NCBI GenBank assembly: GCA_021806745.1
Contig: JAJZQS010000023.1
Coordinates: 1 to 32,539 of the forward strand
DNA: 32,539 nucleotides
Direction of reading: 5' to 3'
Source of the DNA: a bacterium
Lineage (GTDB): Bacteria > Elusimicrobiota > Elusimicrobia > UBA1565 > UBA9628
Under the pieces are notes generated by a model. That model was not told the DNA's origin, made no database searches, and saw only the letters and a list, made by a program, of their open reading frames with translations. How positions within the stretch are numbered: position 1 is the stretch's first letter; each line of letters begins with the position of its first letter. Below are positions 2,115-26,398 of this stretch, piece after piece. Both the position numbers and the translations under genes were made by a program.

Positions 2115-2990
2115 TCAAGGGTCGGAGGGCCCGGAGCCGGGCTTGCCGCCCACGAGGACCTGGAAATCGCCGCGTACTCTCAGCGCCTCGAAGTCGTCGT
2201 CGTCGCGCGCGCGCGCGCGCAGCGACGCGTCCAGGCGGATGGCGGCGGCCAGCTCCGCCATTGCCGGGGCGATGCGGCCGGTCAGGGTCATCACCGCGGC
2301 GTTCTCATAGCGCGCGATGGGCAGATCCGGCGCCAGGTCGGCGGCCGTCTGGGCCTCGGCGGAGGCGGCGTCGGTTTGTCCGTCCTCGAACAGCAGGCGG
2401 GCGTCCTCGGCGTGGGCGCGGGCGCGTTCGCGGCGCGCGTCCGGGTCGTAGACGCGCGTCAGCAGAAAGCGCAGGCGCGGGCCCTTCGAGCTCCGGGCGT
2501 AGACGACGACCGCGCAGGTCGACAGCGGGTTGAAGTTCACCGCGGCCAGGCGCCAACCCGGGCCCGGCCAGCCGCGGGTCAGTCGAGAGCGCAGCGACGA
2601 GGTCGAAAGAAGCACCGGCGCGGTCTCCGGCGCGGGATTTTCGGGGACGGTCTCGGCGTAGCCGGGGCGAGACCAGCCGGCCTCGCCCAGGTCTTTTTCC
2701 GTCTGCGCGGCGACTTTGGGGTCCCAACTGAACGCGCCGTCGAGCTGGAGATTCCAGTCGGTCTTGGAATCCTCGCGTCCCGGCGGTATCGTCATCGTGC
2801 CGATGTTTGTCTCCACGGGCTCGGCCTGGAGTCCCTGGCCGAGCTTCGGGAAGTATTCGACTTCAAGCGCCGCAGAGCAGGCGTCGTTCCAGCCCAGCAC
2901 GCGCCATTGCGCGCGCGCGATCGCGGCGTCTTCGACGGCGGACGCGGGCGCGACGCACGGAAAGACGGCGGCCAGCAGCAAGGCGAGCAC
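2115..2990 (-). CDS. Exported protein with C-terminal TPR-like helices, function unknown
   Basis: I do not recognise the family. The frame stays open upstream to 3254, but that part overlaps the riboswitch and is Arg/Pro/Gly-rich. I therefore choose GTG at 2990 (291 aa), which directly begins a hydrophobic signal peptide (LALLLAAVFPCVAPASA) and sits 6 nt after a perfect TATAAT. The middle part (about residues 25-190) looks globular and beta-rich. The last 90 residues are Ala-rich helices resembling TPRs and end in an 'RARDDDDFEALR..FQVLVGG' stretch typical of the end of bacterial TPR arrays. The neighbouring TPR kinase follows after 50 bp, so this protein could work with its extracytoplasmic TPR region (inference). 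The start codon is the least certain point because the n-region carries almost no positive charge. Confidence 0.65.
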   Translation of the reverse strand: MLALLLAAVFPCVAPASAVEDAAIARAQWRVLGWNDACSAALEVEYFPKLGQGLQAEPVETNIGTMTIPPGREDSKTDWNLQLDGAFSWDPKVAAQTEKDLGEAGWSRPGYAETVPENPAPETAPVLLSTSSLRSRLTRGWPGPGWRLAAVNFNPLSTCAVVVYARSSKGPRLRFLLTRVYDPDARRERARAHAEDARLLFEDGQTDAASAEAQTAADLAPDLPIARYENAAVMTLTGRIAPAMAELAAAIRLDASLRARARDDDDFEALRVRGDFQVLVGGKPGSGPSDP

Positions 2991-2996
2991 GATGCG

Positions 2997-3002
2997 ATTA
3001 TA
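2997..3002 (-). promoter_or_regulatory. -10 box (TATAAT) of the exported TPR-like gene, leaderless
   Basis: A perfect TATAAT on the minus strand ends exactly 6 nt before the GTG at 2990, so transcription should start at or next to the start codon. The -35 region is poor (AAGTTT at 3020-3025) and overlaps the -35 of the divergent porin promoter. Confidence 0.5.
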
Positions 3003-3023
3003 GGATTCCGGCGGCGCCGAAAC

Positions 3024-3052
3024 TTGACAGAAAAAAAGCCGCGTGATAGGAT
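3024..3052 (+). promoter_or_regulatory. Sigma70-type promoter of the riboswitch-porin transcript
   Basis: TTGACA (3024-3029), 17 bp spacer, TAGGAT (3047-3052). The expected transcription start, about 3056-3060, coincides with the 5' strand of riboswitch helix P1. The promoter and aptamer therefore fit together with almost no extra 5' sequence. Confidence 0.7.
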
Positions 3053-3055
3053 TGC

Positions 3056-3198
3056 GCCGACAGCCTAAGCCGCCCGCCCTTCCTGGCGCGCGGCGCGGGG
3101 GACCCGGACTCCCTGGAGACAGGGACGGGGCGAACGAGGGCGGGCGACCGTCCGAGAGGCCACTTCCAAGGCCTAGCCCGTCAGCTAACCTCGTCGGC
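3056..3198 (+). promoter_or_regulatory. Cyclic-di-AMP riboswitch (ydaO/yuaA class) aptamer
   Basis: Recognised from conserved blocks in the right order. GCCGAC at 3056-3061 pairs with GTCGGC at 3193-3198 to form P1. Next come a CCTAAG block, GCGGGGGACCCGG (about 3095-3107), a CTCCCT/AGGGA hairpin, GGGGCGAA (about 3127-3134), and the class-defining 3' block CCGTCAGCTAACCTCG (3178-3193). These correspond to the GGGGACCC, GGGGUGAA and CCGUCAGCUAACCUCGUAAGC blocks of the B. subtilis ydaO leader. Members bind c-di-AMP, and ligand binding usually switches the downstream gene off. Here the only gene on the transcript is the porin. Family identification is by eye; a covariance-model search (RF00379) would settle it. 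Confidence 0.88.
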
Positions 3199-3277
3199 AT
3201 TTGGGAGGGTGATGTTCGGCCCGCGCGTCTTGCGCGGCGCAGGAAATCCCCCACTTCGTGCCCCTGGGGGGTGCTGC
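3199..3277 (+). promoter_or_regulatory. Probable expression platform between riboswitch and porin
   Basis: The 79 nt after P1 hold a perfect 6-bp hairpin (CCGCGC/GCGCGG, about 3221-3237). A CCCCC run (3248-3252) could pair with the GGGGGG (3266-3271) just upstream of the ATG at 3278. There is no T-tract, so I favour control of ribosome access over transcription termination. A GGGAGG at 3203-3208 followed by GTGATG (3209-3214) offers an alternative, upstream in-frame start. Confidence 0.45.
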
Positions 3278-4750
3278 ATGCCTGCGTCTCGCGTCGCCGT
3301 CCTGCTGAGCTTCGTTTTTGCCGCGGCCGTTTGCGCGCGCGCGCAATCGTCTCCGGAATCCTCCGACGCGGCCCTGCGTCGGCAGGTGCAGGACTTGCAA
3401 AAGCGCCTGGAGCAACTGGAAAAGGAAGTCGGCGCGGCGGGCGGCGCGGCAGTGCCGTCGACCGCGACGGTTGCCGCGCCGGCGGTTGCGCAGCCCTTCG
3501 ACTTCGCCGACTTCACCTGGCTCAACGGCAACAGCCGCACGCACGACTCGCCGCTGGACACGAAATACTTCACGCCCGAGATCCGCGTGGACGCCAACTA
3601 CGTCTACGACTTCAACCACCCGAAGGACCACACGCTCGACGGTTCCTGCGAGACCGGCCGCACCAACGAGCTGCAAATTCAGCAGCTCGGACTCGGGGGC
3701 GATTTCCACTACGACAACGTGCGCGCGCGCTTCATGACGCAATTCGGCGAGTACTCGCAGATGACCCCGCGCAACGACGCCAGTCCTTCGCGCGGCCAAT
3801 GGAATCTGAACAACGCTTATCAGTACATCTCCGAGGCCTACGGCGGCTACCACTTCGACGTGCTCAATCAATACGGCGTCAATGTCGACGCGGGCATATT
3901 CATGTCCTACATCGGCCTGTTCAGCTACTACAACGCCGACAACTGGGCCTACCAGCCTTCCTATGTCTCGGCCAACACCCCGTGGTTCTTCAACGGCGTG
4001 CGCATCCAGACCTTCCCGACCGACCGCTGGAAATCCGAGTTCTGGCTGATCAACGGCTGGCAGTCCTACGGCATGTTCAACGAGCAGCCGGGCGTGGGCA
4101 CCGAGCAATTGTGGCGTCCGACCGGTTGGCTGGAGCTCATCTCCAACGACTACATGGGCGCGGACACGCCCGGAAACCCGGCGCGCCAGCGCTACCACAG
4201 CGACAACAGCGCGGAGGTCAAGTACCTCGACCGTCCGAAGAGCTTCATCGACAAGGCCGCCTTCTCGCTCACCTTCGACGCGGGCTGCGAGAACGGCGGC
4301 GGCGTCAAGTGCTTCTCAAGCGCGCCCGGCGCGCCGCAGCAGGACTTCCTCGGTTTCATGTTCTACGACCGGACTTGGTTCGCGCGCGACAAGTACGCGC
4401 TGACGCTCGGCGGCGGCGCGATCACCAATCCCGGCCGCTATCTCGTCTTGCTGCCGCCGGTCAATGGCGCGACGGCGGCCTCCGGCACGCCGTATTTCAC
4501 CGAGAACCCGGGCGACCAGTTCAAGGCGTGGGACATGTCGGCCACTTTCGACATTCTGCAAAACGATTATCTCACCTGGCGCCTGGAGTTCGACCACCGC
4601 GCGGCCGACGTGCCCTATTTCGCCGGACCCGGAGGGATGACGCCGCCGGGCGGAAACAACGGCAACCCCGGCGCCGTCGTGGCAGGCTGGGCTCCGGACT
4701 TGGTCAAGGCGGAAAACCGCATCAATGTCGCGATGCTGATCAAATTGTGA
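3278..4750 (+). CDS. OmpL-like outer-membrane beta-barrel porin (putative BBP2 family)
   Basis: 490 aa from ATG 3278. This start opens a clean signal peptide (residues 1 to about 22, ending ARA) and is preceded by a G-rich SD-like run; GTG/ATG at 3209/3212 is the alternative and would add 22-23 residues. After the signal comes a short coiled coil (about 25-55: heptads of QVQDLQKRLEQLEKEV). A long Tyr/Trp/Asn-rich series of amphipathic strands follows, with repeated aromatic pairs and a short hydrophobic end (NVAMLIKL). The opening 'FTWLNGNSRTHDSPL' and the overall pattern match the putative beta-barrel porin-2/OmpL-like family (PF07642) as I know it. Expected role: a trimeric or coiled-coil-anchored diffusion pore. 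It is alone on its transcript, behind the c-di-AMP riboswitch. The substrate is unknown. Confidence 0.8.
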   Translation: MPASRVAVLLSFVFAAAVCARAQSSPESSDAALRRQVQDLQKRLEQLEKEVGAAGGAAVPSTATVAAPAVAQPFDFADFTWLNGNSRTHDSPLDTKYFTPEIRVDANYVYDFNHPKDHTLDGSCETGRTNELQIQQLGLGGDFHYDNVRARFMTQFGEYSQMTPRNDASPSRGQWNLNNAYQYISEAYGGYHFDVLNQYGVNVDAGIFMSYIGLFSYYNADNWAYQPSYVSANTPWFFNGVRIQTFPTDRWKSEFWLINGWQSYGMFNEQPGVGTEQLWRPTGWLELISNDYMGADTPGNPARQRYHSDNSAEVKYLDRPKSFIDKAAFSLTFDAGCENGGGVKCFSSAPGAPQQDFLGFMFYDRTWFARDKYALTLGGGAITNPGRYLVLLPPVNGATAASGTPYFTENPGDQFKAWDMSATFDILQNDYLTWRLEFDHRAADVPYFAGPGGMTPPGGNNGNPGAVVAGWAPDLVKAENRINVAMLIKL

Positions 4751-4797
4751 CGGATCATCGCGCGGTCGGGCCGGTGCGAGGCGGATGCGGGATGGCG

Positions 4798-5955
4798 CTA
4801 GAACGAGTAGCGCAAACTCGCCTTGAGCGTCGTCCAATAATTTAGCGTGGCCATGTCCATGTTTTCCGACGCGGCCAATTTCGGCAAGCCGGCCGCTTCG
4901 ATCAAAAGCTCCCAATTTTTATACGACAGACCCGGGCCAGCCTCCCACGCGAAGCCGGTCCCGGTGACGGAATAGTTCGCCACGCGCAACGCGCCGACGG
5001 GCAGGACTCCCAATTGCTGACAAAGCGATGACGGCGAATTGCAGTAGAGTTGGTCCGTTTCCTGCTGCCAGCCTTGCGCTACGCCCGCTCCCGCATGGAA
5101 ATGGAGCGCGAGGTTCTCCCGAATCTCCCAGTGTGCCTGCCCTTCGAAAAGAAACCGGAGGTACGAAACGCTGCCGCTCGTGTTGTCGCCGAAGCTGGCT
5201 CCGCTCGTTCCGGGAGAAAACGTCTCGGCGTATTGCGGACCGGAAATGTAGCTGAGGCTCCCTCCCCAATCCACGATGTCGGACGCCGGACGAAGATATC
5301 CGGCCGTCAATCCCCAGCCGCCCGTGGCGGAATAACTCGCGGCGGACCCTGCCGGCAGCGAGTTGACGGTCGATTGTGTTCCAGCGCGAATTCCGGTCGC
5401 GGCGTTGCCGATGCTGTAGTAATCCACCGCTAGGAACCATTGCCCTGCGTGCGGCGTCAAACCGGCATCGGTCGCGGGGTAAGCATGATCCTGCCAAGTC
5501 GGCGGCGCGGAAGCCGCCGGTCGAGCGTACACGGTTGCCGATGCTTCGGCGGGCTCGGGGTTGTTTGCGGCGGCTGCAGATGCCGAAAAAGAGAAGGCAT
5601 CGGAGTCGTCTTTCGCGGGCTGCTGCGACGGCGAGGGGGGAGGCGCGTCGGAATATCTCGCGGGAGCGGCCGGAGAATCCTTGGGATTGGCGGGCCAGGG
5701 GCCCGCAACAACCTTGCGTATGTGGCTCCAACGCACGAAAAACAGTCCGCGATCCCGCGCTCGGAAGCGCAGGCCGAGCGCGCCTGAGCTGATGACGGTG
5801 GCTTGGAGCGCCGTGCCTTCCGGTATCGGCGTACCGGAGCCCATGATGACGGTGACGTTTTGACCATTCGTTAGCTGCATGGGTTGAGCCCACGACCGAG
5901 CGCAGTTTAGTGCGAGTGCAAAGAATACCGCCCGGATTAGCCAACGGTTGCTCAT
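4798..5955 (-). CDS. Outer-membrane beta-barrel protein with N-terminal small beta domain
   Basis: 385 aa from ATG 5955, with an SD-like AGGGGGGAG about 6 nt upstream. A signal peptide (1 to about 23, ending SWA/Q) is followed by a compact beta-rich domain of about 60 residues (25-85: GQNVTVIMGSG...LRFRARDRGLFFVRWSHIRKVV). A Pro/Ala/Ser linker (about 90-150) comes next, then a C-terminal barrel with alternating Gly/aromatic strands ending in Tyr-Ser-Phe, the usual C-terminal signal for BAM assembly. The specific family is not recognised; porin or surface channel is a guess. It is convergent with the porin (47 bp between stops, no clear terminator) and divergent from an XRE regulator, which suggests control by that regulator. 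Its A+T content is visibly higher than that of its neighbours. Confidence 0.75.
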   Translation of the reverse strand: MSNRWLIRAVFFALALNCARSWAQPMQLTNGQNVTVIMGSGTPIPEGTALQATVISSGALGLRFRARDRGLFFVRWSHIRKVVAGPWPANPKDSPAAPARYSDAPPPSPSQQPAKDDSDAFSFSASAAAANNPEPAEASATVYARPAASAPPTWQDHAYPATDAGLTPHAGQWFLAVDYYSIGNAATGIRAGTQSTVNSLPAGSAASYSATGGWGLTAGYLRPASDIVDWGGSLSYISGPQYAETFSPGTSGASFGDNTSGSVSYLRFLFEGQAHWEIRENLALHFHAGAGVAQGWQQETDQLYCNSPSSLCQQLGVLPVGALRVANYSVTGTGFAWEAGPGLSYKNWELLIEAAGLPKLAASENMDMATLNYWTTLKASLRYSF

Positions 5956-6066
5956 GTCCGCTCCCCCCTGAAGTCGCGAGACGCCTATGCGCCAATATTA
6001 GAAAATATTATATTTTTTCCTATAGAGTATTTTAGCATCGACGGTCCTTGCCTACAATGATTTGGA
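5956..6066. promoter_or_regulatory. AT-rich divergent promoter/operator between barrel protein and XRE regulator
   Basis: 111 bp, markedly AT-rich in its middle. It holds a perfect 15-bp dyad with one central base (AAAATAT-T-ATATTTT, 6002-6016). A minus-strand TATAAT (6012-6007) lies inside the dyad and would give the barrel gene a leader of about 45 nt with its SD. On the plus strand TACAAT (6053-6058) lies 8 nt before the TTG of the regulator. A dyad over the -10 of the barrel gene is the expected place for repressor binding (inference). Confidence 0.5.
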
Positions 6067-6405
6067 TTGCTCGACATATACTTGCTCGTCGGCCAAAGAA
6101 TCCGATCGGAGCGCAAGGACAGGAAGCTGACGCTGGAGGAGCTTGCTTCTCTCGCGGGAATGAATACAAGCTTCCTCCATCACATCGAAACCGGCAAGAA
6201 AAAGCTGAGCCTGGCCATGCTTCAAAATGTCGCCCACGCTTTACGGTTGCCGATTTCGCGGTTGCTGGAGCGTTCGGAGTCAAAGCAGCCCGAAGACCTC
6301 TATGTCGACAGGCTCTCCGCGCTGGTTCGACGGGCCGATTCGGAAAAGCGCGAGACGATCATCCGTGTGGTGCGCGAATTGACGCGCGGCCCGCGGTCGC
6401 GCTGA
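6067..6405 (+). CDS. XRE-family helix-turn-helix transcriptional regulator
   Basis: 112 aa with a single HTH_3-type DNA-binding domain (about residues 9-65: GQRIRSERKDRKLTLEELA...MNTSFLHHIETGKKKLSLAMLQNVAHAL) and a charged helical tail (about 70-112) that may dimerise. No ATG is available in frame. TTG at 6067 is taken because a stop (TGA 6058-6060) lies just upstream and a TACAAT -10 ends 8 nt before it; TTG at 6082 would also keep the domain intact. It is transcribed away from the barrel-protein gene, a common arrangement for a local repressor. There is no ligand-binding domain, so the signal is not apparent. Confidence 0.8.
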   Translation: MLDIYLLVGQRIRSERKDRKLTLEELASLAGMNTSFLHHIETGKKKLSLAMLQNVAHALRLPISRLLERSESKQPEDLYVDRLSALVRRADSEKRETIIRVVRELTRGPRSR

Positions 6406-6458
6406 ATTGCAGCGCAAGGACGTCTCGGCGGGCTGCAGAGATTCGGCGCGTCTTCCCC

Positions 6459-6488
6459 TTGATGCGACCGTCGCCGACATGCGATAAC
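6459..6488 (+). promoter_or_regulatory. Promoter of pgm, leaderless
   Basis: TTGATG (6459-6464), 18 bp spacer, GATAAC (6483-6488), then 5 nt to the ATG at 6494. No SD is present before pgm. Confidence 0.45.
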
Positions 6489-6493
6489 CAGAC

Positions 6494-8125
6494 ATGAGCA
6501 ACCATCCCGACGCCGGAAGGGCGCCGACGGCCGCGCAGCTTGTCGATGTCCCGAAGCTGATTGCGGACTATTTCGATCTTAGGCCCGATCCGGCCGTCAC
6601 CGCCCAGCGCGTGGCCTTCGGCACCTCCGGGCACCGGGGCTCGGCGTTTTCGCGTTCCTTCAACGAGGCGCACATCCTCGCCGTCGCCGAGGCGATCTGC
6701 CGCTACCGAAAAAAAGAAGGCACGGACGGGCCGTTGTTCTTGGCGCAAGACACCCACGCGCTCTCCCGGCCGGCGCACGACACCGCGCTGGAGGTGTTGG
6801 CCGCGCACGGCGTGGAGGTCCGCGTCGCCGCGGACGGCGGCTATACGCCCACGCCCGCGCTGTCCCACGCGATTTTGGCCTACAACCGCGGGCGCAAGAC
6901 TGGTTTGGCCGACGGCATCGTGGTCACGCCCTCTCACAACCCGCCCGAGGACGGAGGCTTCAAGTACAACCCGGTCAACGGCGGACCTGCCGACGCGGAC
7001 GCGACGAAGTGGATCGAGGCCGAGGCCAACCGCCTGCTTGAAGGCGGCCTTAAGGAGGTGCGGCGCGTTTCCATCGAGAAGGCGCGCCGCGCCGCCAAGC
7101 CGCACGATTACCTGAGCGAATATGTGGATGACCTCGGCGCGGCGATCGATTTCGCGCCGATCGCGTCCTCGGGCCTCGAACTGGCGGTCGATCCTCTGGG
7201 GGGGGCGGGGGTCGCGTATTGGCCGCGCATCGCCGCGCGCTGGAAGCTCCCGTTGAAAGTCCTGAACTCGACGGTGGACCCCACCTTCCGGTTCATGTCA
7301 CTGGACTGGGACGGCAAGATACGCATGGACTGCTCGTCGCGCCACGCGATGGCGGGATTGGTGGCGCTCAAGGACCGCTACGATCTCGTGCTGGCCTGCG
7401 ACACCGACCATGACCGGCACGGGATCGTCGCCCGCGGGGCGGGCCTGCTCAACCCCAACCATTATCTCGCGGTCGCCGTTTCGTATTTGTTCCATCGACG
7501 CAAGGACTGGCCCGCGCGCGCGGGCGTGGGCAAGACGATGGTGTCGAGCTCCATGATCGACCGCGTGGCCGCGGAGCTTGGACGACGGCTCTACCAAGTT
7601 CCCGTCGGCTTCAAGTGGTTCGTGCCGGGACTTCTCGACGGCTCGCTCGGCTTCGGGGGCGAGGAGAGCGCGGGCGCGTCGTTTCTGCGCCGCGACGGCG
7701 GCGTCTGGACCACCGACAAGGACGGCATCCTCCTGGCGCTGCTCGCCGCCGAGATGACCGCGCGCGAGGGGAAAAACCCGGGCGAGCTTTATCGAGATTT
7801 AACCGCGCGCCACGGAGATCCGGTCTATGAACGCGTGGACGCGCCAGCCTCGGCGCAGCTTAAGGCGGCGTTGCTCAAGCTTTCCCCGGATCGGCTTGCG
7901 GCCGATACGCTTGCCGGCGAGCCGATCACGGCCAAGCTCGTGAAAGCGCCCGGCAACGGCGCGGCGCTGGGCGGTCTCAAGGTCGAGACCGCCGGCGGCT
8001 GGTTCGCGGCGCGGCCCTCAGGCACGGAGAGCGTCTACAAGATTTACGCGGAGAGTTTCCGCGGCGAGTCGCACCTGCGCCTCATCCAGGCCGAGGCGCG
8101 CGCGCTCGTGGCGGGCTTGGTCTAA
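6494..8125 (+). CDS. pgm: Phosphoglucomutase (alpha-D-glucose phosphate-specific)
   Basis: 543 aa, close to E. coli Pgm (546). It interconverts glucose-1-phosphate and glucose-6-phosphate in the cytoplasm, linking glycolysis to glycogen and nucleotide-sugar synthesis. Visible family signatures: FGTSGHRGS (about 42-50), the phosphoserine loop TPSHNPPEDGG with S147, the Mg2+-binding DTDHDRHG (D303, D305, D307), the sugar-specificity loop GGEESAG, and the C-terminal phosphate-binding loop RPSGTESVYKIY. The frame is intact and full length. It stands alone, with its own predicted leaderless promoter. 88 bp separate it from the regulator gene and the next plus-strand gene is over 700 bp away. Confidence 0.96.
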   Translation: MSNHPDAGRAPTAAQLVDVPKLIADYFDLRPDPAVTAQRVAFGTSGHRGSAFSRSFNEAHILAVAEAICRYRKKEGTDGPLFLAQDTHALSRPAHDTALEVLAAHGVEVRVAADGGYTPTPALSHAILAYNRGRKTGLADGIVVTPSHNPPEDGGFKYNPVNGGPADADATKWIEAEANRLLEGGLKEVRRVSIEKARRAAKPHDYLSEYVDDLGAAIDFAPIASSGLELAVDPLGGAGVAYWPRIAARWKLPLKVLNSTVDPTFRFMSLDWDGKIRMDCSSRHAMAGLVALKDRYDLVLACDTDHDRHGIVARGAGLLNPNHYLAVAVSYLFHRRKDWPARAGVGKTMVSSSMIDRVAAELGRRLYQVPVGFKWFVPGLLDGSLGFGGEESAGASFLRRDGGVWTTDKDGILLALLAAEMTAREGKNPGELYRDLTARHGDPVYERVDAPASAQLKAALLKLSPDRLAADTLAGEPITAKLVKAPGNGAALGGLKVETAGGWFAARPSGTESVYKIYAESFRGESHLRLIQAEARALVAGLV

Positions 8126-8859: not shown

Positions 8860-10029
8860 ATGCCCCTGCTCGACAAAGCCGCCGACGAATTGAATTGGAT
8901 GTTCCCGACTTTGCCGTGGACCGTGCGCCTGAGCTGGCGAGGCCAGAGCCGCCCGATCGGACGCGGCCCGGAGAGAGTGGAGATGGCCTGCAAGACGGAG
9001 GAATCCCTGCGCGCGCTGGCCGCGGGGGACCTGTCGCGCTTTCTTGATCACTATGTGCTTGGCGACGCGGACCTCAACGGCGACATGTACGCGTTCGTCG
9101 GCGCGCGCAATCACGTGCGCCGCGACGAGCTCTGGCGCATCCGCTGGAAGTACCAACTGCGCTACTTGTGGACCGCGCTGTTTCCCTCCTCGGTGAGGCG
9201 TAAGCTGAGGGCGGTCAGTTCCCACTATGATCTGCCCAACGAATTCATCCTGTCCTACCTGGACACGCGCACGCGGGCGTACTCGTGCGCGATGTGGGAT
9301 TCGCCCGAGACGATCGGCGACCTGAGCGACCAGACGCTGGAGGACGCTCAGCACAACAAGTTCCAAATGGCGCTCGACGAACTGCAGATCCAGCCCGGCG
9401 ACCGCTTCCTCGACATCGGCTGCGGCTACGGCTACGCGGTCCACCTCGCCGAGACCAAATACGGTTGCCGCGACGCGCTGGGCATCACGCTGTCGCAGAA
9501 CCAGATCGACGAGGGCTACTCGAAAAATCTCAAGCTCCTGCACTACAAGCAGCTTCCCGCCGACGGAAGCTTCGACAAGATCTACACCTGCGGCATGATC
9601 AGCCATCTCGATCGCTCCGAGATCGAGCAGTACTACCGCCATGTTTTCGGGCTGCTGAAGTCCGGAGGCAAGGTCTGGTTTCACGCGATCATCCCGCCGG
9701 CCAATTCCGCCGGGCTGACCAACTACACGACGATTTCCGGCACCTTCAGCCAGAAGTATGTTTTCCCGGACCACTTTCAATTCCCCGTCCATGTTCATCT
9801 GAAAATGATCGAGAAGATGGGGTTCCGGGTCAAAAAAATCCATTTCCGATACGGGCATTACGCCAAAACCCTGCGGCACTGGTATAAGCGTTATGTCGAG
9901 AATTTGCCGCGCACGCGGGCGATGATCACTCCGGTCATCGAACGCGCCTGGCATCTGTATTTGACCTACGCGTCCGTCGTCGACGGCCCCAATTCGGTGG
10001 TCAAGCAGATCGTCTGCGAAAAGGCCTGA
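8860..10029 (+). CDS. Cyclopropane-fatty-acyl-phospholipid synthase family SAM methyltransferase
   Basis: 389 aa. The N-terminal third matches the lipid-binding part of CFA synthases (YVLGDADLNGDMYAF around 65-79). It continues with the family hallmark HYDLPNEF...YSCAMW (122-146, C143) and the SAM-binding motif FLDIGCGYGYA (183-193). Known members methylate or cyclopropanate acyl chains of membrane lipids. At the position of E. coli Glu239 (GMFEHVG), a bicarbonate ligand, this protein has Ser248 (GMISHLD), whereas the later His (H275) is kept. The reaction may therefore not be plain cyclopropanation; N-methylation of polyamines or another methyl transfer is possible. Its stop overlaps the lgt start (TGATG), so the two are translationally coupled, fitting a membrane-lipid role. 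Confidence 0.85.
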   Translation: MPLLDKAADELNWMFPTLPWTVRLSWRGQSRPIGRGPERVEMACKTEESLRALAAGDLSRFLDHYVLGDADLNGDMYAFVGARNHVRRDELWRIRWKYQLRYLWTALFPSSVRRKLRAVSSHYDLPNEFILSYLDTRTRAYSCAMWDSPETIGDLSDQTLEDAQHNKFQMALDELQIQPGDRFLDIGCGYGYAVHLAETKYGCRDALGITLSQNQIDEGYSKNLKLLHYKQLPADGSFDKIYTCGMISHLDRSEIEQYYRHVFGLLKSGGKVWFHAIIPPANSAGLTNYTTISGTFSQKYVFPDHFQFPVHVHLKMIEKMGFRVKKIHFRYGHYAKTLRHWYKRYVENLPRTRAMITPVIERAWHLYLTYASVVDGPNSVVKQIVCEKA

Positions 10030-10871
10030 TGCATCCGATCTTGTTTCGCTGGGCCGACGGAACGGGATTTGCGACCTATTCGGCGCTGGTCACGCTCGGC
10101 TACGTCGTCGGCGTGCTGTGGCTGAGGACGCAACTCGAGCATCATCGCGCCGAGCCCGCCGAGTTGTGGGGCATGGTCGCCGCGGTGTTGGCGGGCGGAA
10201 TCCTGGGCGGCAAGATCGGATTTTTCATCGTCGAGTGGACCGACTTCAAGGCCGATCCCTGGGCGATGATCCGGCGCTGGAACACCGGCTGGGTGTATTG
10301 GGGCGGAGTGATCCTGGGCTGCCTGGCGGGCCTCGCCTATCAATGGTGGCACAACCGCCGCTGGCGGCCGCGCGCATACCTGCCGGTGGCCGACTATTGC
10401 GTGGCGGCCGTGGCCATCGGCCATGTGCTGGGCCGGCTCGGCTGTCTGATGGAGGGCTGCTGCTACGGCCGGCCCACGAGCCTGCCTTGGGGCATTTCGT
10501 TCATCAGTCCCGCGTGCAGCGTGGCGCCCGAACTTCGCGGCATCCCGCTGCATCCGACGCAGATCTACGAGGGCCTCGGAGAGGCGTTCGCCGCGTGGTT
10601 TCTGACCGCGAGGCTTCTGCCCGCGATCCGCGCGGGAAAATACCGCTACGGCACCGGCTTTTTCGGCTACATCCTCTACTACTCGACGCTGCGCTTCGTC
10701 GTCGAATGCTTCCGCGGAGACGACCGCGGCGTTTTCCTATCCCCGATTTTGTCCCCGTCCCAGTGGACTTCGCTGTTCGCCTTCGCCGTCGCCGCGGCGA
10801 TACTATGGAAGCGAGGGATCGTCGAGCGCGATCCGGGGGGGCGCTCGTTGTTCTTGGAGGCGCCGCGATGA
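10029..10871 (+). CDS. lgt: Prolipoprotein diacylglyceryl transferase
   Basis: 280 aa, polytopic with about seven membrane segments. It transfers diacylglycerol from phosphatidylglycerol to the lipobox Cys of prolipoproteins, the first step of lipoprotein maturation. Visible motifs are an N-terminal TYSALVTLGYVVGV segment, GGILGGKIGFFI (about 56-67) and the Lgt signature region GHVLGRLGCLMEGCCYGRPT. That region is the Cys-rich variant (GCxxxGCCYG) found in many non-proteobacterial Lgt proteins in place of GNFxNxExxG. HPTQIYEG follows, then a C-terminal helix with a basic tail. Coupled to the preceding lipid methyltransferase through TGATG. The downstream TPR gene is convergent, with 18 bp between stops. 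Confidence 0.93.
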   Translation: MHPILFRWADGTGFATYSALVTLGYVVGVLWLRTQLEHHRAEPAELWGMVAAVLAGGILGGKIGFFIVEWTDFKADPWAMIRRWNTGWVYWGGVILGCLAGLAYQWWHNRRWRPRAYLPVADYCVAAVAIGHVLGRLGCLMEGCCYGRPTSLPWGISFISPACSVAPELRGIPLHPTQIYEGLGEAFAAWFLTARLLPAIRAGKYRYGTGFFGYILYYSTLRFVVECFRGDDRGVFLSPILSPSQWTSLFAFAVAAAILWKRGIVERDPGGRSLFLEAPR

Positions 10872-10889
10872 CGGCAAATCCGGGCGCGC

Positions 10890-12647
10890 CTACGGCAGCG
10901 CCAAGCCGCAGTCGAGGCCGTCCTTGACCACGGCTCGGATTTCGGCGGGCGAGGAGGCCGGCGCGGGATCGGCCAGCCGCAGCATCAGCGAGCGAAGCCC
11001 GGGATCGTCGGCCCGCGCGGAAAGCGCGCGCAGGCGGGCGGCGGTTCGACGCGCGTCTTGGGGGCGTCCGTCGACGCGGTCGAATTCCATCCGGATGCAC
11101 AACGACTTCAGCGAGTCGGGGCGAAGCGCCTCGGCCTGGCGGAGATAGGACCAGGCGGCGGGGCGCTCGTCGCGCACGGCCGCGGCTCCGGCCAGCACCA
11201 GGAGCGTCCAGTCCGGATGATGCTCCGGTCGCGCATGGGCTTGGGCGAAAAGCGCCGCGGCCCGCGCCTGTTCGGGATGGCCGCGTTCCAGCAGCATGCC
11301 GGCGTATGTCGTCCAGAGGACGTCCGTGTATTCCGGCATCAGCGCCGTCAGCCCGTAGATGAGCGGCTTGAGGGCCGCGTCGGGCACGCCGCGACGAAGC
11401 TGAGCGGAAATTCGCCCCAGCGGGTCGTGGAGAATCGGGTAGTAGTCGTGGCCGACGACGCGTTCGGCCCGCTCGAAATACCAAAGAGCCCGGAGCGGCT
11501 CGCCTCCGTATGCGCACACGCGCTCCAGCCCGGCCAGTCCCGCGATGGAGCCGGGCTCGCGCGCGAGCAACTGCGCGAACGCCGTCCGCGCTTGGGGCGC
11601 ATCCGCGGCGGAAAAGGCGCGCTCGCCGCGCCAATAGTCGGCGGCGATGGGCGCCGATGCGGCGGCGGAATCCTGCTCGCGGGCCGAAGCGAGGCGGCGC
11701 AGGCGTTCGGCCTCGGGTAGCAGCAGAACGCTCTCGTCGTCTCGAGAGAGCACCGCGAGGCGCCGCAGCGCGTCGAGGCGCGCCGCGGCGCCCGCGCCGT
11801 CCAACGCCGCTCGAGCGTCCGCGCGCCATAAACTCCGTCGCAGGGCGCGGCATCGCGGCGCTTCGCGAGGAGTCAGCGCCAGCGCGCGCGCGAAAGCGGC
11901 GCGCGCGAGCGCGTTCTGACCCAGGCGCAAGCGCGCGTCGCCGAGAAGAGCGTAGAGATCGGCCGCGACGGCCGAGCCGCGGCCCGCGTTCGCCCAAACT
12001 TCGACTTTGCGGGCGAATTCCGAGAGCGTGCGCGGGTCGGCGCCCTTTTTCAGCAATTCGCGCCCGAGCCCTTCGACGATCTCCCTCGAGAGCGGCGGGC
12101 CGTCCGGGGCCGCGCGCAGGGAAGCCGTCAGGGCTTTCAGTTCCGAGTCGGCTTGAGCCCGGTCGCCGAGAGCCAAGTCGAGCTCGGCGCGCTCAAGGAC
12201 GAGCAGAGGTTCGCCCGGGCAGCGGCGCGCACCCTCATCGAGAGTGCGCCTTGCTTCGTCGAGACGGCGGCGGTCGAGGAGGATGCGCGCAGACAGCGCG
12301 TAGGCGTGCGACAGGTACGGCTCGCGCCAGCAGCCGCCGTCGTCGGTCGGGCTCGCGCGCCCCCGCGCCTTCCGATAGCGTTGAAGCGCGCCGTTCGCGT
12401 CGCCCTCGGACTCGAGCATGAGCCCCAGCCCCAGTTGCGTCATCACGCGGCCCGAGGCCAGGAGTCGTTCGCGTTTTTTTCCTTCCACGCGCTCGCCGCC
12501 GGGGCGGCCGGGCGTGAGCCAATCGAAGGCCAGACGCAGGTCGCGGCTCGCCAGCGCGGCGGCCAGCAGCGCGAGAGCCGCCGCGGTCCAGGCGGCGGCG
12601 CGGCGTCGACGCGGCGCGGCGTCAGTCCGCGGCGGTTGTTCCGGCAT
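10890..12647 (-). CDS. Membrane-anchored TPR-repeat protein
   Basis: 585 aa from ATG 12647; the frame is open further upstream, but that start directly follows a promoter at canonical leaderless spacing. A short Arg-rich cytoplasmic tail precedes one membrane helix (about 20-38, AAAWTAAALALLAAALAS), so the bulk should be extracytoplasmic. The rest is helical pairs of TPR type across the whole length (e.g. about 65-180, 200-300, 330-480, 500-570) with frequent LLGDARLRLGQ, ALWYFERAERV and YGLTALMPEY patterns. No enzymatic motif is visible. It resembles the O-antigen/EPS-type tetratricopeptide scaffolds only in layout. It lies directly downstream of the acyl-carrier operon in the same direction but has its own promoter. 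Confidence 0.75.
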   Translation of the reverse strand: MPEQPPRTDAAPRRRRAAAWTAAALALLAAALASRDLRLAFDWLTPGRPGGERVEGKKRERLLASGRVMTQLGLGLMLESEGDANGALQRYRKARGRASPTDDGGCWREPYLSHAYALSARILLDRRRLDEARRTLDEGARRCPGEPLLVLERAELDLALGDRAQADSELKALTASLRAAPDGPPLSREIVEGLGRELLKKGADPRTLSEFARKVEVWANAGRGSAVAADLYALLGDARLRLGQNALARAAFARALALTPREAPRCRALRRSLWRADARAALDGAGAAARLDALRRLAVLSRDDESVLLLPEAERLRRLASAREQDSAAASAPIAADYWRGERAFSAADAPQARTAFAQLLAREPGSIAGLAGLERVCAYGGEPLRALWYFERAERVVGHDYYPILHDPLGRISAQLRRGVPDAALKPLIYGLTALMPEYTDVLWTTYAGMLLERGHPEQARAAALFAQAHARPEHHPDWTLLVLAGAAAVRDERPAAWSYLRQAEALRPDSLKSLCIRMEFDRVDGRPQDARRTAARLRALSARADDPGLRSLMLRLADPAPASSPAEIRAVVKDGLDCGLALP

Positions 12648-12653
12648 CCCGGT

Positions 12654-12682
12654 ATTGTCGTATAGCGCGTCCGTCCGCGCAA
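12654..12682 (-). promoter_or_regulatory. Promoter of the TPR-repeat gene, leaderless
   Basis: Minus strand: TTGCGC (12682-12677), 17 bp spacer, GACAAT (12659-12654), 6 nt to the ATG at 12647. It separates the TPR gene from the acyl-carrier operon, whose last stop is at 12704. Confidence 0.5.
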
Positions 12683-12703
12683 GGCTGACGGCGCTTTCGC
12701 GCC

Positions 12704-14674
12704 CTAGCGCAGCGACATCGCGCACTCGTAGGCTTCGCGCAGCGCGCTGGTGATGTTCGCGTTGTGCCCGGGTTCGTCGCGGCACGCTCCGACGCTCGCG
12801 AAGGCGATGGACAGACGGCGCAGCGTCTCGCGCGGGCCCGGGCGCGGGTCGTGGCCCGCGGCGACGACGACCGTCGCGGCCGGCACGCTCCGGCGCCGGC
12901 CCCCGGCGCGATCGCAGATCTCGACTTCTCCGGGAGACACGCGTACGAGTTCGACGGACTTCAAGGCTTCCACGCCGGCGTCCTTGAGTTCATTCATCAG
13001 GACCCAGCGGGTCGTCCAGCCGACTTTGTGCGCGAGCTTGCGGCTGGACCGCTGGAGGATGGTCACGCGCGCGCCGGGGCCGCCGAGGCGGGTCAGGAAT
13101 TTCGCCGCGTCGCAGGCCACGCCGCCCCCTCCGACGACGACGGCCGGAAACGCGACCGGCCGCGCTCCTTCCAGCACCTCGCGATAGCCGAGCACGTGCG
13201 CGCCGTCCGCTCCGGGTACGCCGTCCAGCCGCCGGGGCGCGCCGCCGACCGCGACGACGGCGAAATCCCACGCCTCCTGCGCCGCGTCGTGGTCCTGGAA
13301 CGCGCAGTTGAGCCGGATCTCGACTCCGGCGCGACGAGCTTCGTGCGAGTAATAGCGGACCGTCTCGGCGAACTCTCCTTTCCCGGGCACGAGCGCGGCG
13401 GCGTTGAGCTGGCCGCCGAGGCGTTCGGAAGCTTCGAACAGCGTTACCCGGGCGCCGCGCCGCGCCAGGAACAGAGCCGCGCCCAGGCCGGCGATCCCGC
13501 CGCCGATCACGGCGACGCGGCGAGGGCCCTCGAAAGGCGGGTAGACCCCCTCGTTCGGCTTCGCGCAGTCGGGGGCGACGCTGCAGCCGACCGGCTCGCC
13601 GCTGGAGAAGATGAAGTCCAGGCAGCTCTGGTTGCAGGCGATGCAGGTGTTGATCTGCTCGAAGGCTCCGCGGCGGGCTTTGTCGGCCAGCGCGGCGTCG
13701 GCCAGGAACGGCCGTCCCATCGCGATCACGTCCGCGGCGCCGTCTTCCAGCAGGCGCTCGGCCAGGCGGGGGTCGTTGATGCGGTTGCTGACGGCGAACT
13801 TGAGCGCCGGGAATCGGGCGCGCAGCCGCGCGGAGACTTCGGCGAACGCGGCGCGCGGCACCGACATCGAGATGGTCGGGACCGAGGATTCGTGGCAGCC
13901 GATGCCGACGTTGATCAGATCAGGACCGAACGGGATCAGGAGCTCGACGAGGGCGTCGGACTCCGCGCTCGTCAGTCCGCCCGCGATCAGGTCGCGACAG
14001 GGCACTCGGAAGATCAGCGGATAGCGCGGTCCCACGCTTGCGCGCACGGCCTCGGCGACCGCCAGCGCGAAGCGCGAGCGGTTTTCGAAAGAACCTCCCC
14101 AGCGGTCCACGCGGCGGTTGAAGACCGGAGCCAGGAATTGATGGACGAGAAATCCCTGCGAAAAACACAGTTCGACGGCGTCGTAGCCGACTTGCGCGGC
14201 GCGCGCGGCGCAGGCGGCGTAGGCGCGCACGGTCGCCGCGATGCCGTCTTCGTCCAGAGCGCGTGGCGTGTAGGGAATTTCGGGAGCGCGTCGCGGCGAA
14301 GACGAAACCAGCCCCGCGTGCGACGCGTGGCGTCCGAGGTGAAGAATCTGCAGGGCGATGCGGCCGCCTTCCGAGTGCACCGCGTCGACGATCCCGCGGT
14401 GGCGCGGAATGTCCTCGTCTTGCGCCAGCGCGAAGCCGCTCGGCGTGGATTTCCCGGCGGCGTCGGGGCTGCAGCCGGCGGTCACGATCAGGCCGACGCC
14501 CAGCCGCGCGCGTCGCGCGTAGAAGCGCGCCAGGCGTTCGTATTGCGCGGGGTCGTCGTCTAGGCCCATGTGCAGCGAGCTCATCAGCAGGCGGTTGGGC
14601 AACTCCAGCGAGTTCAGGCGCAGAGGGGAGAATAATCGCGGCAAAGCCGGGGCGGCGCGCGAGGCTTCGCTCAC
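12704..14674 (-). CDS. FadH-like 2,4-dienoyl-CoA reductase family flavin/Fe-S oxidoreductase
   Basis: 656 aa from GTG 14674 (GTGA overlap with the fabG-like stop); E. coli FadH is 672. Domains: an Old-Yellow-Enzyme TIM barrel with FMN (about 12-340, LFSPLRLNSLELPNRLLMSSLHMGL), a 4Fe-4S motif C344-x2-C347-x3-C351-x12-C364, an FAD dinucleotide fold (387-400, VAVIGGGIAGLG), and an NADPH fold near the GGGGVACDAAKFL stretch. The catalytic His (H261, GCHESSVPTI) is kept. The Tyr in the E. coli GYLINEF motif, assigned there as proton donor, is Phe175 here (GFLVHQF). In beta-oxidation FadH removes 4,5 double bonds from dienoyl-CoA. At the end of an ACP/KS/KR/DH operon with no FabI, FabK or FabV, it is the obvious candidate enoyl reductase (inference). 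Confidence 0.88.
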   Translation of the reverse strand: MSEASRAAPALPRLFSPLRLNSLELPNRLLMSSLHMGLDDDPAQYERLARFYARRARLGVGLIVTAGCSPDAAGKSTPSGFALAQDEDIPRHRGIVDAVHSEGGRIALQILHLGRHASHAGLVSSSPRRAPEIPYTPRALDEDGIAATVRAYAACAARAAQVGYDAVELCFSQGFLVHQFLAPVFNRRVDRWGGSFENRSRFALAVAEAVRASVGPRYPLIFRVPCRDLIAGGLTSAESDALVELLIPFGPDLINVGIGCHESSVPTISMSVPRAAFAEVSARLRARFPALKFAVSNRINDPRLAERLLEDGAADVIAMGRPFLADAALADKARRGAFEQINTCIACNQSCLDFIFSSGEPVGCSVAPDCAKPNEGVYPPFEGPRRVAVIGGGIAGLGAALFLARRGARVTLFEASERLGGQLNAAALVPGKGEFAETVRYYSHEARRAGVEIRLNCAFQDHDAAQEAWDFAVVAVGGAPRRLDGVPGADGAHVLGYREVLEGARPVAFPAVVVGGGGVACDAAKFLTRLGGPGARVTILQRSSRKLAHKVGWTTRWVLMNELKDAGVEALKSVELVRVSPGEVEICDRAGGRRRSVPAATVVVAAGHDPRPGPRETLRRLSIAFASVGACRDEPGHNANITSALREAYECAMSLR

Positions 14675-15435
14675 GCGGAAAGGCCGCCGTCGACGACGAG
14701 GACTTGGCCCGTCACGTAGCCGGCCGCGGGGGAAGCCAGGAACGCGGCGCATTGCGCGACCTCCTCGGCGCGCCCCAGACGCCCCAGCGCGATCATCCGG
14801 CGCGGATCGGCCGGGGTTTCCTCGGACTTTCCGGCGGCGGAGCCGCGCAGCATGTCGGTATCGATGAATCCCGGCGCGACCGCGTTCACGCGGATCCCGT
14901 GGCGGCCGAGTTCGCGCGCGAGCACGCGAGTCAGCGCGATCAGGCCGCCCTTGGCCGCGGCGTAGTTGGCCTGGCCGGGAAGTCCGCGCAGACCGCTGAG
15001 GGAGGCCACGTTGACGATGCAGCCGCGGCGGCGGGCGATCATCGCCGACGCGGCCTCGCGCGCGCAATGGAACGCTCCGTCCAGGTTCGTACCCAGGACT
15101 TCGCGCCAGTCCTCGGTCGACATCACCGCGAAGGGGCGGTCGCGCAGGACGCCGGCATTGTTGACCAGAGTGCGCACCCAGAAGCCGCGCGCGCGAATCT
15201 CGGCGAACATCGCGCGTACGGCTTCGCGGTCGCCGACGTCGGCGCGCAACGCGTCGGCGCCCGCGCCCTTTTCGCGGACCAGGCGGCAGGTCTCGCCGGC
15301 GGCCTCGGCGTCGGCTTTGTAGTTGACGAAGACCTGCGCGCCGCGGGCGGCCAGGGCCAGAGCGATCGCGCGCCCGATGCCGCGTCCTCCGCCGGTCACG
15401 AGAACGGCGTCTTTAAGCGGCGACGGGATCGTCAT
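14671..15435 (-). CDS. FabG-like 3-oxoacyl-ACP reductase (SDR family)
   Basis: 254 aa, typical FabG length. Cofactor loop TGGGRGIG (14-21), NNAG (92-95), and catalytic Ser145, Tyr158 and Lys162 (YAAAKGG) are all present, plus the C-terminal GQVLVVDGG. It would reduce 3-oxoacyl-ACP to 3-hydroxyacyl-ACP with NADPH. The start ATG is 1 nt from the stop of the ketosynthase-like gene, and its stop overlaps the FadH-like start by 4 nt. I leave the symbol blank because it is more likely the ketoreductase of this special pathway than the housekeeping fabG. Confidence 0.92.
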   Translation of the reverse strand: MTIPSPLKDAVLVTGGGRGIGRAIALALAARGAQVFVNYKADAEAAGETCRLVREKGAGADALRADVGDREAVRAMFAEIRARGFWVRTLVNNAGVLRDRPFAVMSTEDWREVLGTNLDGAFHCAREAASAMIARRRGCIVNVASLSGLRGLPGQANYAAAKGGLIALTRVLARELGRHGIRVNAVAPGFIDTDMLRGSAAGKSEETPADPRRMIALGRLGRAEEVAQCAAFLASPAAGYVTGQVLVVDGGLSA

Positions 15436-26020: not shown

Positions 26021-26043
26021 CGCGGCGCGTCCGCCAAAGGGTT

Positions 26044-26398
26044 CAGGGACGGCCTGTACCCCGGATTCTGTCCCGGCCCTCGCGGGCCATCGGGGACCAT
26101 TTCTCTGATGCGGCCACCGGGCGACCGTCCCGGGCGTCAAGCCCGGGCGCGCGAGCCGCGCGTCTTCGCCCACTGCCTTGCTCCCGACGGGGTTTGGCTG
26201 TGCCGCGTCCCTCGCGGTCCGCGCGGTGGGCTCTTACCCCACCTTTTCACCCTTGCCCTCGCGGGCGGTGATTTTCTGTGCCACTGTCCGTCGACGGGGG
26301 ATTTGGCCCCCGCCTCCCCGCCTTTCGACGGGCGTCGCGCTCGACGGAGTCCGGAAGTTCCTCCCGCCTTTCGGCGAGCGGCCCCCCGGCCGTCCCTG
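26044..26398 (-). ncRNA. rnpB: RNase P RNA (bacterial type A)
   Basis: Read on the minus strand, conserved elements appear in order. GGAGGAACTTCCGGACTCC (CR-I region, about 26342-26371) comes first, then GACAGTGGCACAGAAAA (about 26280), AGGGTGAAAAGGTGGGG with TAAGAGCCCACC, CAAACCCCGTCGGGAGCAAG, AGAGAAATGGTCCC, and the 3' block ACAGAATCCGGGGTACAGGC (about 26054-26073). P1 is an 11-bp perfect helix, CAGGGACGGCC at the 5' end (26398-26388) with GGCCGTCCCTG at the 3' end (26054-26044). This is the catalytic RNA that trims tRNA 5' leaders. It begins 5 nt after the stop of the zinc-ribbon gene. Confidence 0.96.

Follow-up and report, generated by a model that had tools for sequence, protein, structure and literature searches.

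A c-di-AMP riboswitch ahead of an outer-membrane porin gene with probable ties to potassium uptake in an Elusimicrobiota lineage

Architecture of the locus

The stretch of DNA analysed here (the window) comprises 32,539 nucleotides of a 2.78-Mb Elusimicrobiota genome (G000; completeness 93.6%, contamination 0.8%), and the locus under study is made up of a promoter, a riboswitch aptamer and a porin gene. The aptamer lies at 3052-3214 on the plus strand, where the covariance model RF00379 matches over its full length (1-134) with 47.9 bits against a gathering threshold of 38 (E 2.5e-8 in the window), and a search of the whole genome returns this match and no other (E 5.1e-10). Judged by this covariance match, significant in the window as well as in the genome, the element is a genuine c-di-AMP (ydaO) riboswitch, which bears out the class that had been read from the letters of the sequence. 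Conserved core blocks of the class, namely GGGGGACC, GGGGCGAA and CCCGUCAGCUAACCUCG, are present in the window aptamer in the alignment to the RF00379 consensus and are common to a 15-sequence alignment. Moreover, a covariance model of our own (R1), built from 15 Elusimicrobiota riboswitches, scores the window aptamer at 136.4 bits, the window being among the model's own training sequences.

With regard to the inner structure of the aptamer, the RF00379 alignment places the consensus P1 helix at GCC 3063-3065 and GGC 3196-3198; the second helix ends at CCUCGU 3189-3194, and the adjoining CAGCUAA 3182-3188 is conserved. The original prediction had drawn P1 as GCCGAC 3056-3061 paired with GTCGGC 3193-3198, and in this point it has to be corrected: the Rfam P1 is a different one, the proposed 5' strand is not kept in G010 and G017, the two same-genus relatives of G000 that were used as comparison, and GCCGAC falls at or ahead of the expected transcription start.

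A sigma-70-type promoter, TTGACA-17-TAGGAT, occupies 3024-3052 on the plus strand with 10 of 12 consensus matches (shuffled sequences give a mean of 0.1). It is the only promoter found in 2900-4900 and is kept ahead of the same riboswitch in both G010 and G017, so the good promoter that had been predicted is indeed there. With this promoter before it and the start codon at 3278 after it, the riboswitch is placed in the 5' leader.

The gene behind the leader (3278-4750, plus strand) encodes a BBP2 (OmpL-like) outer-membrane porin of 490 aa with an intact frame, which is a clear member of family PF07642 (profile E 9.9e-43; 147.1 bits against a curated cut-off of 26.2) and has an N-terminus that looks by eye like a signal peptide. 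An AlphaFold2 model based on 34 sequences shows an N-terminal helix (29-54) and 16 strands at a mean pLDDT of 66.6, and the best 50 Foldseek matches listed for it are all outer-membrane porins or channels, with low TM-scores of 0.27-0.43 by query length; hence the barrel class is supported and no specific relative is singled out. A beta-barrel fold is thus supported by the predicted structure, and the search by sequence for a solved relative found none (best E 0.19). Translation from an in-frame GTG at 3209 was also considered and rejected, since the upstream frame is out of phase with the porin in G017. The next long open reading frame downstream (4798-5955) runs on the opposite strand, which makes the porin a single gene in the window, and the prediction that the switch precedes one OmpL-like barrel gene is confirmed. 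Elsewhere the window contains a class A bacterial RNase P RNA (26041-26397, minus strand, 143.4 bits) and one 787-aa open reading frame (12704-15067, minus strand) joining an Old-yellow-enzyme-type flavin oxidoreductase to a pyridine nucleotide-disulphide oxidoreductase domain.

The kdpFABC position, ligand supply and sequence conservation

Comparison within the genus places the porin in a potassium operon in one of the two relatives. The order in G010 runs from the riboswitch (contig C61:9657-9825) through the porin (9889-11346) and two small open reading frames, one of which reads by eye like KdpF, to kdpA (11590-13260), kdpB, kdpC, pgm and kdpD, while in G017 pgm stands about 60 bases after the porin. 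In the window the corresponding phosphoglucomutase/phosphomannomutase gene (pgm, assigned by Pfam) is at 6494-8125 on the plus strand; it is 80% identical to the G010 gene and forms a syntenic flank common to G010 and G017. The position of kdpFABC in G010 is therefore represented in the window by 4751-6493, which is taken up by an unrelated gene on the minus strand (4798-5955) and by other sequence: kdpA, kdpB and kdpC, all present in the G010 homologue, are absent from the window locus, and no kdp remnant was found between the window porin and pgm. At this place there is also a short plus-strand open reading frame (5956-6497) that reads by eye like an XRE-type helix-turn-helix regulator. KdpA is absent from the G000 and G017 genomes and occurs once in G010. 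From these gene orders we infer that kdpFABC was most likely lost in G000 and G017, rather than originally absent from them.

Among the four families of potassium importers sought in G000 (KdpA, TrkH, Kup and KimA-like), no match was found in this 93.6% complete genome, and TrkA_N gave weak matches only (26 and 21 bits). Some of this absence may be due to the genome being incomplete.

As for the ligand, the search for a diadenylate cyclase in the same genome, which had been suggested as a check, found one DAC gene of the CdaA type (DAC match C8:4408-4758, minus strand; locus L013, G000:C8:4219-5103, minus strand). Both its N-terminal region and its DAC domain can be aligned to diadenylate cyclases, PDB 9g69 among them, and the DGA motif is present, whereas GTRHAA replaces the GTRHRA of the solved relative, that is, RHA for the canonical RHR. 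DAC genes were found in 49 of 58 genomes. The motif search covered 31 loci, the window genome's own included, two of which lack a displayed match; among the displayed matches of 28 relatives, 25 have T, S, A or L as the third residue of RHR and three (G050, G052, G053) have R, with DGA and the first R of RHR kept, so that the change is lineage-wide. Replacement of the whole RHR motif by AAA abolishes DacA of Mycobacterium tuberculosis (PMC3328451), and R203A abolishes CdaA of Leptospira (PMC12974146); neither change concerns the third residue by itself. Given the RHA variant, synthesis of c-di-AMP in G000 appears likely but not secure.

The absence of kdpFABC from G000 and the altered cyclase motif, read beside the M. 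tuberculosis result, together raise the question whether the locus is a relic, in which switch and porin decay after the loss of the pump or the switch lies idle for want of c-di-AMP. Conservation speaks against such decay. The aptamer is identical at 151 of 153 positions between the window and G010 and at 150 of 152 against G017, and the interval between aptamer and start codon at 56 of 62 and 57 of 62, respectively; fourfold-degenerate sites of the porin are identical at 111 of 176 (G010) and 112 of 186 (G017). The porin itself has dN 0.19 and dS 0.72 against G010 (dN/dS about 0.27) and dN 0.17 and dS 0.77 against G017 (dN/dS about 0.22). An aptamer so little changed across a dS of about 0.7, where fourfold sites have diverged so far, is under selection, and together with the intact porin frame and its dN/dS of about 0.22-0.27 it indicates that the RNA is kept as well as the protein. 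Since, in addition, the change at the third RHR position is shared throughout the lineage with DGA and the first R retained, we regard a relic as very unlikely.

Expression platform and the sign of the switch

The bases between the aptamer and the porin (3215-3277, plus strand) form a candidate expression platform without a U-run, and no intrinsic terminator was found on the plus strand between the aptamer and the porin start. The leaders of all three porin genes (G000, G010, G017) lack a U-run, whereas a hairpin followed by a U-run stands by eye behind the aptamer of G050, G220, G222, G061 and G333. What the porin leader does contain is a possible hairpin of AUCCCCCA (3246-3253) with UGGGGGGU (3265-3272), which would close the SD-like GGGGGG at 3266-3271. 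Of the local folds, this hairpin ranks first in G000 and G010 but not in G017, and its strength does not exceed that seen after shuffling (z -0.8, -0.8 and -0.4 for G000, G010 and G017).

Folds of the whole leaders, which are 257-265 nt long and GC-rich and for which such folds are weak evidence, give probabilities of an unpaired SD, in the same order of genomes, of 0.01, 0.00 and 0.33 with the aptamer forced, 0.31, 0.33 and 0.31 in an alternative fold that pairs the aptamer's CAGC with GCUG beside the SD, and 0.01, 0.17 and 0.31 when unconstrained; in G017 the forced and the alternative fold do not differ. As the SD is closed with the aptamer forced in two of the three leaders, an OFF switch acting on translation is weakly favoured. 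A known precedent is found in Bacillus thuringiensis BMB171, whose kdpFABC genes are reported to be controlled by a c-di-AMP riboswitch of the OFF type that acts by termination (PMC6488665). The window aptamer belongs to the same class, and the arrangement in G010 is alike in that the switch precedes an operon holding kdpFABC. The window differs from the B. thuringiensis leader in that the porin comes first, kdp is missing and no intrinsic terminator is seen after the aptamer, where the latter uses termination.

The opposite sign has also to be weighed. In an ON switch the ligand-free CAGC...CCUC strand would pair with the SD region and close it, and c-di-AMP would free the SD and give more porin. 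The pairing of CAGC with GCUG beside the SD is available in all three leaders, and folding without constraint leaves most of the SD region paired in G010 and G017 (0.17 and 0.31 unpaired); however, forcing the aptamer closes the SD even more in G000 and G010 (0.01 and 0.00), and the described B. thuringiensis kdpFABC leader of the same class is an OFF switch (PMC6488665). An ON switch is accordingly quite improbable on this evidence.

We take it as likely that c-di-AMP represses translation of the porin by closing the ribosome-binding site. At high c-di-AMP the bound aptamer would hold on to its 3' strand (3182-3198) and the leader downstream would fold so as to close the SD-like GGGGGG, with less porin and less K+ entry as the expected result; at low c-di-AMP the aptamer strand would pair elsewhere and translation would be permitted. 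A site expected to respond to the ligand is CAGCUAACC in the leader RNA (window 3059-3280).

Potassium neighbourhoods of the porin and of the riboswitch class

The porin occurs in 11 of 340 Elusimicrobiota genomes, in seven of them directly upstream of kdpA (G010, G012, G022, G025, G029, G036, G038), in two between kimA and a gene for a KdpD-like kinase (G015, G016), and in two as an orphan (G000, G017); the porins of G012, G016, G036 and G038 are distant and matched by part of the profile only. The loci L020 and L021 of G015 and G016 have the order kimA, porin, kdpD-like without kdpABC between them, KimA replacing Kdp beside the porin.

Beyond the phylum, a scan of the contigs of named genomes kept 80 porin loci out of 150 relatives, mostly Acidobacteriota and Gemmatimonadota. 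Genes of kdp lie within 1.5 kb of the porin in 41 loci (36 downstream, 5 upstream) and further off in two, and 37 have no kdp within the locus, among which three have less than 600 bases downstream and six carry flanking matches to the KdpD N-terminus or weak partial matches to kdpA (L064, L082, L094, L098, L113, L121). No kdp is annotated beside two plasmid-borne Bacteroidota porins. Kdp-linked porins occur in Acidobacteriota MAGs and also in Acidobacterium sp. S8, where kdp is further off in the locus; the named isolates Edaphobacter aggregans, Terracidiphilus gabretensis and Geothrix terrae have porin homologues with no kdp within their loci. Porins linked to kdp appear all over a tree of 81 porins, the deepest pair included, and the kdp label requires 24 changes for 39 rows, against a mean of 27.3 when shuffled and with 63 of 500 shuffles as low. 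The label is not confined to one clade, which means that gain and loss of kdp are not distinguishable in detail, and its scatter together with the 37 loci without kdp indicates that not every member of the porin group serves Kdp. What sets this subgroup apart from the BBP2 family at large is that it is repeatedly encoded with kdp or kimA.

In two survey sets, both counting G000, RF00379 riboswitches were found in 6 of 58 genomes, all above the cut-off, and in 16 of 340 Elusimicrobiota genomes. The porin follows the riboswitch in G000, G010 and G017; 12 of the 13 others precede KimA-like, APC-type or TrkH transporters and one a CitMHS gene (G323). KimA-like transporters (PF13520) stand behind the riboswitch in G025, G028, G050, G220, G233 and G333, APC-type permeases (PF13520) in G176, G182, G184 and G206 (the last three by eye, from likeness to G176), a PTS EIIA gene followed by an APC permease in G061, and TrkH in G222. 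The KimA-like leaders share with the window both aptamer class and phylum; their target is an inner-membrane KimA-type transporter instead of an outer-membrane porin, and those of G050, G220 and G333 have by eye the hairpin and U-run that the window leader lacks. In G028 and G233 (L009, L163) the riboswitch sits between two tandem kimA-like genes and should control the second copy only, while in G050 (L008) it stands ahead of both copies. The APC-type permeases behind the riboswitch at L164, L165, L167 and L169 (G176, G184, G182, G061) are candidate K+ or osmolyte transporters. The R1 model finds the aptamer at the porin in the window, at L053 (G010) and at L054 (G017). It detects none in the remaining 81 sources, nor in 8 Elusimicrobiota porin loci that were additional or searched again (best 8.6 bits, E 0.72). 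Among the loci searched, the riboswitch is at the porin only in the window's clade.

These neighbourhoods bear directly on what the porin would do. It might be a non-selective pore, used by c-di-AMP to reduce the permeability of the outer membrane as a whole when osmotic conditions change. In favour of this, the BBP2 porins are a broad family, a kdp neighbour is missing from 37 of the 80 loci, and the searches of G000 itself yielded no gene for Kdp, TrkH, Kup or a KimA-like transporter. We hold such a role to be unlikely, because kdp and kimA neighbourhoods are repeated across Elusimicrobiota, Acidobacteriota and Gemmatimonadota and the remaining riboswitches of this class in the phylum stand ahead of transporter genes, for the most part of K+ or APC type. 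Capture of the porin by c-di-AMP without any K+ context is likewise less likely. The original prediction that c-di-AMP tunes outer-membrane permeability thus stands as to riboswitch class and porin target, but not as a separate branch of c-di-AMP control, since the porin recurrently adjoins kdpFABC or kimA. With the riboswitch ahead of porin and kdpFABC in G010 and potassium genes as recurrent neighbours, the target fits the classic K+ regulon, and the new part is an outer-membrane step within it.

Our reading is that the c-di-AMP riboswitch probably controls an outer-membrane porin serving K+ uptake in a genome that most likely lost the pump genes, the putative K+ role of the porin being drawn from gene neighbourhood. 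The porin group would be a recurrent partner of KdpFABC, with G010 retaining the riboswitch ahead of a porin-kdpFABC operon, and loss of kdpFABC in G000 and G017 would leave the switch on the porin alone. A related case comes from Geobacter sulfurreducens, likewise a diderm, in which the K+ uptake gene kup, a neighbour of kdp, is reported to be under an 'osmosensitive riboswitch' (PMC2700814); the target there is an inner-membrane transporter, in the window a porin. A wider reading, which we offer tentatively at somewhat under even chances, is that diderm phyla widely pair KdpFABC and KimA with a dedicated outer-membrane K+ pore, and that in one Elusimicrobiota lineage the c-di-AMP riboswitch now acts on the pore alone and sets the K+ supply. 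No statement of a link between this porin and kdp or a c-di-AMP riboswitch was found in the open-licence literature, a limited negative.

In work on K+ import, ions are usually assumed to cross the outer membrane freely. That a porin group is found again and again beside Kdp or KimA, and retains its own c-di-AMP switch where the pump is missing, suggests that passage across the outer membrane can be a limiting and regulated step. In that case the c-di-AMP regulon would reach past the inner-membrane transporters, and this bacterium may regulate how K+ enters through its outer membrane. The window's porin group, which has homologues in named isolates, is a testable candidate for a K+-linked porin.
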